From NCBI RefSeq assembly GCF_033473495.1, contig NC_088937.1:3224001-3288000 (forward strand): a DNA stretch of 64,000 nucleotides, given 5' to 3'. Under the pieces are notes generated by a model, which had not been told where the DNA came from, ran no database searches, and saw only the letters and a program-made list of their open reading frames with translations. The DNA comes from Cercospora beticola (lineage: Eukaryota > Ascomycota > Dothideomycetes > Mycosphaerellales > Mycosphaerellaceae). Made by a program: the position numbers and the translations under genes. This document shows positions 3,234-37,662 of this stretch, piece by piece (the stretch's first letter is position 1; each line of letters begins with the position of its first letter).

Positions 3234-3737
3234 ATGGCGGCCGGTCCGGGACTATCGGAGCTCCACGAAAATATGTGTCAGGTGTGCGGAAGCGTCCACG
3301 GATCCGACACGGCATGCTGTAATGGTGCTCGAGACTCCTGGCATTGGATGAGATCTGCTATCGGTGTGTCAATGATGGAATACCATGCTGGCGCTTGCCA
3401 ATTGTGCACTTTCATCAAGCCAGGAACTTCATGTCCGAAGCTAGGGGACACTGCGCTCCTGTGCGGTTGGATTGCATGGCGAGAAAATGTCTGCAATGAA
3501 GTCACTCGTATATGGGGCCAGATGTCCAGGGGAATAATTGGTTTTATGAAGCTCGATGGCTCGTTGTCGAGCTTCTGGTTCAAGTTGACCATGGTCCTGC
3601 TGGCATCTCCTCAACGTGGCGGCCGGTACTACATCAAGCTGCCATCTGAAGTTCCGAATGCGGTGATTCACCTACAGAGTCTTGCCAGCAACTGGGACGC
3701 ACCGCTCGTGTGCACGCGGCAACCTCGAGAGCCTTAG
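3234..3737 (+). CDS. Short cysteine-rich hypothetical protein, possible degenerate HET-type N-terminus
   Basis: An ATG-started ORF of 167 residues, head-to-head with the aldolase gene about 100 bases away. It holds a CQVC pair near the start and a CQLC pair near residue 61, with a tryptophan-rich middle. This spacing loosely resembles the N-terminal cysteine clusters that precede HET (heterokaryon incompatibility) domains in fungi, but no HET core follows. It could be a gene remnant, a small real gene or a chance ORF. No splice sites were found that extend it convincingly. Confidence 0.3.
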   Translation: MAAGPGLSELHENMCQVCGSVHGSDTACCNGARDSWHWMRSAIGVSMMEYHAGACQLCTFIKPGTSCPKLGDTALLCGWIAWRENVCNEVTRIWGQMSRGIIGFMKLDGSLSSFWFKLTMVLLASPQRGGRYYIKLPSEVPNAVIHLQSLASNWDAPLVCTRQPREP

Positions 3738-4410
3738 CATTGTCAAGTCGGATCTTTATCGGCTGAGACGATAACCCAGTGATCGCCGTCGCACGCGACA
3801 TAACACATCTGGATTTCGCTCTGCCATAGTAAGTCAGCGGGTTGTGACCCCTTTCGTCGCGGTTCGAGCGTGCATTTTGTTAGTGAGGCTTCGTTGCGCA
3901 GTTGAGACAGACGAAAATGGATCGAGTGTGAATAGCACTGGCCGCTCACTTGTTCAATTTGGCTATCAAATTTGCTTGGAAATTGACGGCGCAGACTTCG
4001 ACCCTGCCAATTCATACTCGAGGAAATTACGAACCTGCGCAGAAAGGAAAGCAGGTAGACATCATGCAAGACCAATATGTAGCTTCCTGCATTTTAACAA
4101 CGTATCGAAGAAGCTGCAAGGCCTTGCAACTGAGCACGACCGCGTAGGAAGTTCACGTCTCCACATATGCCAAGAATTCTGAAGATCTGGCACCACACGA
4201 TTCATGGCTCTTCCGCGGCCAGAGCGGTAGCGCAGCCAGCGTGGTCGTAAGAGTCCTGGACACGGAATCGAAGAAGACGGTTCTCAACGTCGTATAGATA
4301 CTCCCTTCTGAGCGTATGGATGATCAGAAGGGGCCTCCTGCACCTGTTCGGACCAGCGGAAAATGAACGTAGTCTTCATATACAGCTAAAATTTACTCCT
4401 TCACATCTCA
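3738..4410. other. Gene-free stretch upstream of tRNA
   Basis: Only short ORFs on both strands without recognisable content. No transposon ends or clear repeats seen. Confidence 0.5.
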
Positions 4411-4447
4411 GGCGTTGTAGCAAAGTGGTTACTGCGATTGACTCGAA

Positions 4448-4474
4448 AGGGCTGTTCCTACAGTCGTATTCGAT
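4448..4474 (+). other. Canonical tRNA intron
   Basis: 27 nt inserted directly 3' of the purine after the anticodon, the only position the eukaryotic tRNA-splicing endonuclease normally recognises. The exact cut may shift by a base because flanking A residues are ambiguous. Confidence 0.85.
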
Positions 4475-4500
4475 ATCAATTCCCTTCGGGGGCGTAGGTT

Positions 4501-4556
4501 GTACGTTCAATTCTCAGAATTGTAGTTCAGGATAATGGATGCTAACTGTCATCCAG
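4501..4556 (+). other. Spliceosomal-intron-like insert in the tRNA T-loop
   Basis: 56 nt, begins GTACGT and ends CAG. GCTAAC at 4541-4546 fits the fungal branch-point consensus, with its branch A about 11 nt before the 3' end. Length and spacing match the protein-gene introns of this window; the precursor gene at 23268 also uses a GTACGT donor. The insert lies between tRNA positions 55 and 56. Removing exactly GT...AG restores a perfect T-loop. It is not related in sequence to the introner-like elements at 44-50 kb. Confidence 0.8.
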
Positions 4557-4585
4557 CGAATCCTGCCAACGTCGTGATACGTTTC

Positions 4586-4593
4586 TTTTTTTT
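4586..4593 (+). terminator. RNA polymerase III terminator (T8)
   Basis: Eight T residues 12 bases after the tRNA 3' end, the standard Pol III stop. It supports a once-functional, probably still transcribed tRNA gene. Confidence 0.8.
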
Positions 4594-34793: not shown

Positions 34794-37662
34794 ATGGCGT
34801 GGCAGCCACAACAAGGGCCGCTCAACCAGCTGGCACAGTGCTTGCGCGACTCTCTCAGTGGCCATGACGTTCAAGCTCAAAAAAATGCCGACCAGGTGCG
34901 TGGAGTATTGCGAAAGCTTTGTACCTCGTGCTGACCTTGTCTAGATGCTGCGGCAAGCCAAAACCTCACCGGATATCAACAACTACTTAGTGTATCTCTG
35001 CACAACCCCCACCTCAAATACCGGGCTCGATCAAGCAGCATATCATGCAGCACGTAGTGCCGCCGCGATTCTGCTCAAGAACAACATCAAAACTTCATAT
35101 AAATCATTACCAGAGCCGAGCAAGGCTTATATCAAAGCGAACGTGCTGCAAGGACTCCAGGACCGCAACACGCAAATTCGAAACTACATCGGAAATGTGG
35201 TCACCGAAATCGTGCGGCAAGGTGGCATCATGGGTTGGCCGCAAGTCCTGTCTGAGCTCGTCGGAATGATCGCGAATCAAAGCGGTGAAGCCTCACAGGA
35301 AACCCAAGACGGCGCCATGAGTGCACTGTTCAAGATCTGTGAAGATAACCGCAAAGCTCTCGACAAAGAATATCAAGGCCAGCGGCCTTTGGCTTCTCTC
35401 CTACCAGAGCTGCTCAAATTCACGCGACACGACAATCCCAAGGTTCGCTCTCGAGCACTGGCCGCTGTGAATGTCTTCCTAGTCGAGCCAGTTGCGGTGA
35501 CCTTCCAGGAGAACATCAATGAGATCCTGCCAGAAATCGTTCGCCTGTCTCAAGATAGCAATGACGACGTGCGGCGATTCGTCTGTCGGTCCTTTGCACT
35601 TCTCGCGGATTCTCTACCTCATGTGCTCGTACCGCACGTGGAAGGCGTCATTGAGTATACCTTGACCCAACAGCAAGATCGACACAACCAGGAACTGGCT
35701 CTTGACGCTGCCGAGTTCTTTTTCGAGTCCAGCAGCAACGCAGTGCTTCGAGACGCGCTCGGGCCCTATCTTCCCCGCATTGTCCCCGTCCTTTTGAACT
35801 GTATGGTGTACAGTGAGGACGACCAACTCAGACTAGAAGGCGACGAAGAGGATGCTGAGCTCGAGGACGAAGAGAAGGACATCAAGCCGACCTTCGCCAA
35901 GGATAAGGCTGGTCGAGCCGACGCTTCGAACGGAGCACAAACTAATGGCCAGTCCCAGCCCGCCGTCAACGGCTTCGCTTACGAGGATGACGATCTCAGT
36001 GAAGGCGAAGTGGACGAGGATGAAGATTTTGACGAAATCGATCCCGAAGAGGAATGGAACTTACGCAAATGCTCGGCGGCTTCTCTCGATAGCCTTGCGA
36101 CACATTTCCATGGCTCTGTCTTCCAGGAAGTGCTTCCATGGCTAGTGGAAAACTTCAAGCATCAAGACTGGTCAAATCGGGAGGCGGCAGTTCTGGCCTT
36201 GGGCGCGATAGGTCCTGGCTGCATGGACAACATTACGCCACATTTGCCCGAGCTCATTCCACTTATGTTGGCATTGCTGAACGACCCTCAACCCGTTGTC
36301 AGACAGATCACTTGTTGGTCACTCAGTCGCTTTGCGTTCTGGGCAGCCCATGATCCGAATGCTCCGAGGGATCAGTTCTTCGAACCCCTTATGCAGGGTC
36401 TGCTGCAGCGCATGCTTGACCACAACAAAAAAGTACAGCAGTCCGCAGCTTCAGCTTTCGCGGCTCTGGAGGAAAAGGCCAACGCTGCCCTTGCTCCATA
36501 CTGCACGATCATTCTTCAACACTTCGTCAAATGCTTTGGCAAGTATAAGGACAAGAACATGTACATCTTGTACGACTGTGTGCAGACACTGGCTGAGCAT
36601 GCGTCCCCCAAACTTGCCGAGCCGGAGAACGTCAATCTACTTATGCCTGCTCTGATAAACCGTTGGCAGCATGTGCAGGATCAGTCGCGCGAAATGTTCC
36701 CGCTGCTGGAGTGCCTCTCATTCGTGGCCACCGCACTTGGTCCTCAATTTGCCCCATTTGCGGAGCCGCTCTTCAATCGCTGCATTAGACTCATCCAACA
36801 GAACCTGGAAGATGGTGCCAGCGCAGAGCAATCGTTCATGGACCAGCCGGACAAGGATTTCTTGGTCACGAGCCTGGACCTTCTGAGTTCGATCATTCAA
36901 GCCTTGGACGAGCAGCAAAGTGCCAGACTTGCCGGCAGCGCGCAGCCAAACATGTTCCAGATGTTGGCGTATTGCATGCAAGACTCGAGCAACGACGTCC
37001 GCCAATCGGCCTACGCCTTGCTTGGGGACTGTGCCATCTACATTTTCCCCCAGCTCCAGCAATACCTGTCCGAGGTACTCAACATTTTGATTCAGCAACT
37101 CGGGTTGAACGACGTGCAAAACGACCCAGAATCGACATTTCGTGTGATTAACAATGCTTGCTGGTCCTGCGGAGAAATTTCGATGCGGCAGAAGGAGGGC
37201 ATGGCTCCATTTGTTGACAAGCTGCTGGAGAAGCTGGCTGTCATTATTTTCAGCAACGAAGTGCCAGAATCGCTCAACGAAAACGCAGCAATAGCTCTCG
37301 GACGACTGGGACTTGGCTGCCATGAACAGCTTGCGCCCCACCTTGCCAACTTTGCGCCGGCCTTCCTCAAGTACATGCAGAAGGTGGCGTGGACAGACGA
37401 GAAGGGTCACGCGTACAAAGGCTTCTGCAAGGTCGTTTTGGACAACCCTGCCGCCCTCGAACAGTGTCTCCTGGACTTCTTTGGTGAGATCGCCAACGCC
37501 CACGGTGTATTCCTGGCTAGCATGCAGGAAGATGGGCCACTTCAAGACTTCGAGCAGGTCTTGATGAAGTACAAGCAGATGATCGGTAGCGGCTTCGACG
37601 ATTATCTGCACAATCTCCCACCAGCACAGGAGATGGCTCTTCGTCAGCTGTACTCCCTTTAG
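34794..37662 (+). CDS. kap104: Transportin / karyopherin beta-2 (Kap104)
   Basis: Exons 34794-34895 and 34945-37662, 939 residues. The 49-nt intron is GTGCGT...GCTGAC...TCTAG, phase 0, adding MAWQPQQGPLNQLAQCLRDS, the family's first HEAT helix, before MLRQAKTSPDINNYLVYL. Transportin imports cargo with PY-type nuclear localisation signals, mainly RNA-binding proteins, and releases it on RanGTP. HEAT repeats run through the protein; the long acidic insertion near residues 325-400 (EGDEEDAELEDEEKD, then SEGEVDEDEDFDEIDPEEEW) is the H8 loop that couples RanGTP to cargo release. Ends with the conserved LPPAQEMALRQLYSL. Length is normal. Confidence 0.96.

Follow-up and report, generated by a model that had tools for sequence, protein, structure and literature searches.

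Candidate spliceosomal introns in tRNA-Ser(CGA) and other nuclear tRNA genes of Cercospora beticola

The tRNA-Ser(CGA) gene and its two inserts

The window, that is, the whole stretch of 64,000 nucleotides analyzed here, carries on its forward strand a tRNA-Ser(CGA) gene that is interrupted twice, once in the anticodon loop and once in the T loop. The gene and its surroundings were read as:

4377-4383, upstream of the tRNA: wider region of the ATAT-type element of tRNA-Ser(CGA)
4379-4382, + strand: TATA part of this element, a possible Pol III/TBP element, 32 nt 5' of the tRNA
4411-4574, + strand: tRNA-Ser(CGA) gene, with acceptor stem 7/7 (one G-U), D stem 3/3, anticodon stem 5/5, T stem 5/5 (one G-U), and G73 (sequence reading)
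4411-4447, + strand: exon 1, with the 5' acceptor strand, D arm, and anticodon arm to position 37, anticodon CGA (sequence, ARAGORN)
4448-4474, + strand: anticodon-loop intron of 27 nt, borders possibly shifted by one (sequence, ARAGORN as Ser(cga))
4475-4500, + strand: exon 2, with the 3' anticodon strand, variable arm, 5' T-stem strand, and T54-T55 (sequence, ARAGORN)
4501-4556, + strand: spliceosomal-type intron of 56 nt, GTACGT ... GCTAAC ... CAG (excision scans)
4542-4546, + strand: branch-point-like motif CTAAC, its A at 4545, 11 nt before the intron end
4557-4574, + strand: exon 3, with the rest of the T loop, 3' T-stem strand, 3' acceptor strand, and G73 (sequence, ARAGORN)
4586-4593, + strand: run of eight T, a Pol III-type terminator (sequence)

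The insert at 4501 to 4556 is placed between tRNA positions 55 and 56 and splits the B box, while the 27-nt intron is presumably removed by the tRNA splicing endonuclease. A preliminary description of this DNA had reported both inserts and intact stems once they are removed. The stems held on rereading (acceptor 7/7, D 3/3, anticodon 5/5, T 5/5), and the inserts of 27 and 56 nt were read again in the sequence, the shorter one being given by ARAGORN as well. The signals named for the longer insert (GTACGT, GCTAAC with its A 11 nt from the end, and CAG) were all found again, as was the T8 terminator, with eight T at 4586 to 4593.

In its unspliced form, the window gave no tRNA with ARAGORN, whether run without introns or with anticodon-loop introns of up to 250 nt, nor with Rfam at the gathering score. 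When single stretches of 40 to 79 nt were excised from the 220-nt region of the gene, 16 of the 5,820 excisions yielded a junction-spanning tRNA (ARAGORN). The best of them was exactly 4501 to 4556, with a score of 107.6 (runner-up, 103.1), which is the GT-AG removal that had been claimed to rebuild the tRNA. Over the whole window and both strands, a single tRNA came from 18,896 GT-AG excisions, again tRNA-Ser(CGA), and 169,878 excisions with seven other pairs of ends returned one weaker match (102.1). Because the excision scans single out 4501 to 4556, this insert is real and beyond chance. A double cut in the window was rejected as an artefact, its second cut lying behind the tRNA and leaving the score unchanged.

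Inserts with spliceosomal signals in other tRNA genes

The search of the genome (36.07 Mb, 10 contigs) revealed 28 GT-AG inserts outside the anticodon loop, one or two per gene, in 22 of the 53 tRNA genes read. These 53 genes are our own count, drawn from the Rfam tRNA model, tRNA-box patterns, and the reading of loci, with three AT-rich mitochondrial-like matches on contig C2 left out. The catalogue is incomplete: 62 of 905 candidates were scored in the Rfam search, 100 of 150 matches to the A-box pattern were listed, and 100 of 115 matches to the T-arm pattern were listed, fewer than half of them being read. Most of the T-arm matches are due to chance, since a control gave 118. At least 14 further probable tRNA genes, seen by A boxes of several types, lie outside the 53 (e.g., C5:2600935, C5:4498030, C6:1995866, and C9:409698). 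A DNA search with the whole window tRNA found two other genomic places, both Ser(AGA) genes.

The inserts are spread over at least a dozen sites of the tRNA, in its acceptor, D, variable, and T arms, and none of the 28 lies at position 37/38 or anywhere in the anticodon loop, the position of endonuclease-type introns. Positions and some anticodons were assigned by hand:

Ser(CGA) of the window and Leu(AAG) L080: insert at 55/56
Phe L074 and L098: insert at 53/54
Arg(CCT) L069/L082: insert at 58/59
Ile(AAT) L044 and L053: two inserts each, in the T stem and at 68/69
Ser(TGA) L061: insert at 68/69
Ser(AGA) L029: insert in the 3' acceptor strand
Met L037 and L091: insert at 65/66, in L091 also at 4/5
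Cys L073 and L079: insert at 4/5, in L079 also in the variable loop
Initiator Met L078 and L090: insert at 14/15
Val(AAC) L077 and L092: insert in the D loop
Ala(TGC) L060: two inserts, in the D stem and the 3' acceptor strand
Leu(CAA) L036: insert at 25/26
Leu(CAG) L035: insert in the variable arm
Trp in L018: insert in the 3' T-stem strand
Arg(TCT) L040: two inserts, at 4/5 and in the T stem

Many of the interrupted genes also carry ordinary anticodon-loop introns. For L036, L040, L079, L044, L053, and the Trp gene, the anticodon was read by hand, ARAGORN having placed the anticodon intron elsewhere. Its labels thereby differed from the hand reading: Phe(aaa) versus Ile(AAT) for L044/L053, Ala(tgc) versus Cys(GCA) for L079, Leu(cag) versus Trp(CCA) for the Trp gene, Gly(ccc) versus Leu(CAA) for L036, and Stop(tta) versus Arg(TCT) for L040. 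Leu(TAA) was rejected for L080, for which ARAGORN and stem pairing give Leu(AAG).

With anticodon introns of up to 60 nt allowed, ARAGORN recognized 1 of the 22 interrupted genes unspliced and all 22 spliced; the exception was Ser(AGA) L029, whose score rose from 113.5 to 117.4 on splicing. An earlier set of 19 genes with 23 introns had gone from 0 recognized before removal to 18 after it, and the one failure, Ala L060, was recognized once its second intron had been identified. The Rfam tRNA model scored 13 of the 22 genes at 24.7 to 50.8 bits when unspliced (8 above the cut-off), treating the introns as insertions, and ARAGORN with longer introns called other tRNAs in unspliced L035 and L036, with the introns misplaced. 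After removal, the acceptor stems have 7 pairs with G-U counted (e.g., Ile, Ser(TGA), Met, Cys, and Trp). The residual mismatches are one T-T in the anticodon stem of Leu L036 and one in the acceptor stem of Ala L060.

When every single excision was scanned around 22 introns (two additional rows, meant as controls, stand outside this number), the intended GT-AG cut was top or tied for top in 11, a result obtained without the GT-AG rule. It ranked second or third in another 3; in the other 8 it was not the top solution, because anticodon-loop or second introns let ARAGORN build other tRNAs. Two blind scans, both requiring the branch motif, covered 6,527 signal-bearing excisions over 66 partly overlapping loci (single cuts) and 259 excisions over 67 sources (double cuts); they recovered many of the known interrupted genes and added three, Trp, Arg(TCT), and Ser(AGA). 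Some single-cut matches were edge artefacts or chance, as where the tRNA had already been found uncut (L002, L008, L012, and L015), and those in the mitochondrial-like cluster were likewise rejected, their tRNAs being found without a cut.

All 28 inserts have GT-AG ends at exon borders that rebuild the tRNA and are 51 to 61 nt long, with YAG as the 3' end in 26 and AAG in 2. Where several cuts were equivalent, the one with GT-AG was taken, so that for some genes the ends do not count as independent evidence. The branch motif YTNAY, with its A 10 to 14 nt before the 3' end, is present in 28 of 28 inserts, and the stricter CTRAY in 23 (5 are without it); the background at 3,651 YAG sites of the window is 5.1% and 1.4%, respectively. 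The choice of motif was not blind, because it had been noticed while the first introns were being spotted, and it was formally required only in the blind scans. Branch sites of the form RCTRAY, 6 to 36 nt before the acceptor, are given for fungal introns in excerpts of PMC5832005. The one protein-gene intron of the window that we compared resembles the tRNA inserts in build:

34896-34944, + strand: intron of 49 nt in an importin beta-2/transportin-like gene, GTGCGT ... CTGAC ... TAG (protein homologues P0121 and P0122)

The protein encoded by this gene is 88% identical to its homolog in Septoria linicola, 79% in Pseudocercospora musae, 76% in Fulvia fulva, and 74% in Zymoseptoria brevis, which places the genome in Mycosphaerellaceae or near this family. 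Threonine aldolase was less informative, with a mixture of Hypocreales and other names among its matches and none that was both close and named.

Introns outside the anticodon loop are known from other lineages, which raises the alternative that the inserts are noncanonical tRNA introns of the endonuclease type and that their GT-AG ends are incidental. Ectopic introns of Cyanidioschyzon merolae, the Guillardia nucleomorph, and archaea lie, like those found here, in the D, T, and other parts of the tRNA, several per gene (PMC3978253 and PMC4090602, in the passages available). The genome has two matches to the tRNA endonuclease domain, and anticodon-loop introns are present in many of the same genes. 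The ectopic introns are ascribed to the splicing endonuclease in these sources, and those of Guillardia measure 3 to 24 nt, versus 51 to 61 nt here. A bulge-helix-bulge is described there for Cyanidioschyzon and archaea, whereas none of the inserts tested here, 23 of the final 28, forms the 4-bp (4/4) central helix of this motif at its junctions. Its absence is not decisive, since many ectopic introns of Guillardia are also without a defined motif (PMC3978253, in part). Also against an endonuclease, all 28 inserts have GT and AG ends and a branch motif whose spacing is fixed, signals that such an enzyme would not need. We regard this alternative as highly improbable.

A few other loci were unusual in their own right. 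L025, L064, L075, and L076 have anticodon-loop introns of apparently about 70 to 100 nt, far above the usual length, with approximate borders and anticodons. L011:1501-1572 and L012 are tRNAs with GAT and CAT anticodons and an organelle- or bacterial-like look on nuclear contigs, Ile(GAT) being unusual in a eukaryotic nucleus. L020, L028, and L031 (C2:3502591-3503121) form an AT-rich cluster of mitochondrial-type tRNAs inside a large contig, which is either mitochondrial DNA copied into the nucleus or a join made during assembly.

Families, drift, and transcription of the interrupted genes

Several tRNA families were found with interrupted genes only. The 5' half of tRNA-Phe has two matches in the genome (with up to 3 mismatches), and both genes are interrupted at 53/54. 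There are three 5' halves of Ile(AAT); two of the genes were read, each with two introns, and the third was judged interrupted by spacing, the distance from A box to T arm being 117 to 119 in all three. The third Ile(AAT) gene and the Met gene L091, with its two introns, are some 0.7 kb apart (C4:1793720 and C4:1794420). The 5' half of this Ile(AAT) gene on C4 and that of L044 on C1 have an identical start, 1793720, and their T arms differ by 2 nt. The Cys-type A box has two exact matches, both of them the interrupted Cys genes (2 of 2 read). One Trp gene was found, in searches not dedicated to Trp, and it is interrupted. The two genes matching initiator Met are both interrupted as well. A third, diverged initiator-Met-like gene (L011:938-1033, C7, + strand) has an intact D arm and no spliceosomal-type intron; its anticodon loop contains an intron of about 24 nt, its acceptor stem has one mismatch, and ARAGORN labels the gene Ser(cga).

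In other families, paralogs differ in the presence of an intron. Such pairs are Ala(TGC) L060 and L072 for the D-stem intron, Val(AAC) L077 and L092 versus L013, Cys L079 and L073 in the variable loop, Met L091 and L037 in the 5' acceptor strand, and Ser(AGA) L029 and L014 in the 3' acceptor strand. In L072 (C2:4869480-4869605), which is without the D-stem intron, CTG followed by GTAGGT was seen near the end of the sequence read, so this gene probably shares the 3' acceptor intron of L060.

The introns of the Phe pair and of both Ile pairs are 69%, 75%, and 71% identical, versus a mean of 71% after shuffling, yet GT, branch motif, and AG are preserved despite this drift, and the tRNA parts are nearly identical. 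The other four intron pairs are somewhat above shuffled sequence (76 to 83% alike versus 70 to 72%). By eye, the two initiator Met genes differ by changes on both sides of four pairs (7-66, 49-65, 51-63, and 52-62), the Cys genes, among their differences, by two-sided changes of two pairs (5-68 and 52-62), and the window Ser(CGA) gene from Ser(AGA) by two-sided changes of two acceptor pairs (5-68 and 6-67). Pairs 7-66, 5-68, and 6-67 bridge exons on opposite sides of an intron.

These data bear on the question whether mobile, introner-like introns have turned the interrupted genes into pseudogenes or decaying copies while the cell relies on other, intact genes. Introner-like elements are a source of new spliceosomal introns in the related fungi Fulvia fulva, Dothistroma, and their relatives, and a possible origin of the introns described here (PMC4457414, in the portion available). 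Ala, Val, Cys, Met, and Ser(AGA) have paralogs that lack the respective intron, and the tRNA genes read are part of the genome's set. Moreover, insertions in the D and T arms of eukaryotic tRNA genes are mostly taken as pseudogenes, with the exception of algal nuclei and nucleomorphs, in the available part of a 2014 review (PMC4090602). Against decay stand the compensated stem changes between paralogs (four pairs in initiator Met, two in Cys, and two in Ser(CGA) versus Ser(AGA)) and the families in which every copy found was interrupted (Phe, 2 of 2; Cys, 2 of 2; Ile(AAT), 2 of 2 read and a third by spacing). The window insert has no genome match besides itself at E values up to 10, and the Val pair gave the only match among the 23 introns compared with one another; no recent introner-like burst is therefore visible. 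Unlike introner-like elements, the introns compared form no sequence family, and an introner-like family was rejected, near-identical copies being absent for the window insert genome-wide and, apart from the Val pair, no match being found among the 23 introns. Because the stems are compensated and essential families were found only interrupted, pseudogenes or recent mobile insertions account poorly for the data, and we consider them a very unlikely explanation.

Of the two possibilities left by the preliminary description, processing by the spliceosome is thus much better supported, by sequence signals and recurrence, and the recent landing of a mobile intron that destroyed the gene is a poor fit. 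The latter does not agree with an insert that has no relative in the genome while 21 other tRNA genes carry like inserts, with splice signals preserved in paralog pairs whose introns have drifted, or with Phe, Ile, and Cys families found, as far as the genome was read, only interrupted. An assembly or contamination artefact is next to inconceivable: the 22 genes lie on several contigs and have well-formed inserts of differing sequence, and neither splice signals nor compensated stems would arise in this way. Judging from the sequence, the 56-nt insert of the window is very probably a functional spliceosomal (U2-type) intron in a nuclear gene for tRNA-Ser(CGA). It would belong to a set of no fewer than 28 introns of this kind, spread over 22 or more tRNA genes.

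The introns split the B box in Ser, Leu, Phe, and Arg genes and the A box in initiator Met and Val genes. Of 11 interrupted tRNA genes, 7 had a NATATH element at -26 to -52, as did 16 of the 24 others compared; among 32-nt stretches drawn at random from the window, 4.4% contained it. The element was chosen after inspection of the sequences, and L029, later found to be interrupted, is counted among the 24. The strict TATA occurred at -22 to -50 in 5 of 11 and 8 of 24 genes, respectively, and at -52 to -80 in 4 of 11 and 2 of 24. An ATAT-type element about 30 to 50 nt upstream is common to interrupted and uninterrupted tRNA genes. Runs of at least five T within 60 nt downstream were present in 7 of 11 interrupted and 19 of 24 other genes, some of the sequences ending early. 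In Cyanidioschyzon, an upstream TATA box is thought to replace the internal boxes (PMC3978253), and the upstream element and T runs found here would fit Pol III transcription with a TATA-like element, as proposed for that alga.

For the spliceosomal reading, maturation could proceed as follows. Pol III would transcribe the gene with the aid of the upstream ATAT element, since the introns split the internal A or B box. The spliceosome would recognize GT, CTAAC, and AG in the pre-tRNA and excise the intron, and the tRNA splicing endonuclease and ligase would remove the ordinary anticodon-loop intron by the established pathway. The ends would then be trimmed and the cloverleaf formed.

Relation to known introns and biological meaning

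By the accepted view, the introns of nuclear tRNA genes are left to the tRNA splicing endonuclease, whereas spliceosomal introns belong to Pol II transcripts, U6 and U3 being the known exceptions among small RNAs. Spliceosomal introns also occur in ascomycete rRNA genes. Canonical anticodon-loop introns are present in the window gene and others of the set; the inserts described here differ from them in place, in signals, and probably in machinery. A close likeness is seen with the introns of fungal U6 snRNA and U3 snoRNA, which also combine GT-AG ends with CTRAY inside small structured noncoding RNAs, and those of U3 are, as here, present in some paralogs and absent in others (PMC5832005, in part). 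The same paper, of 2017, states that among small structured RNAs frequent interruption by an intron was known for U3 and U6 only. In contrast to U6 and U3, the host here is a tRNA, many genes and positions are concerned, and one molecule often contains two introns of different splicing pathways. The main text of the 2014 review has no word beginning with "spliceosom" (PMC4090602). No report of spliceosomal introns in nuclear tRNA genes was present among the matches listed in open-licence PubMed Central (titles and openings of abstracts), and one may exist elsewhere. What appears new is the occurrence of known splicing signals in a class of host genes for which we found no precedent.

It is likely that no intron-free gene is left for Phe, and probably for Ile(AAT), Cys, and Trp, and that the spliceosome has become an obligatory machine of tRNA maturation in this lineage. 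Two unrelated splicing systems would then cut single pre-tRNAs, and introns would have been gained over the acceptor, D, variable, and T arms of a large share of the tRNAs. Since spliceosomal maturation would be obligatory, translation would depend directly on pre-mRNA splicing capacity. Standard annotation may miss or misread such tRNAs, which could explain seemingly incomplete tRNA sets in such fungi.

If true, essential tRNAs that need the spliceosome would break the division of labor between it and the endonuclease, and Pol III transcription with split internal promoters would become testable. The genes would also offer a clean record of intron gain, since the required product of the target is known to the base. 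Finally, the machine that splices mRNA would be necessary for making components of protein synthesis.
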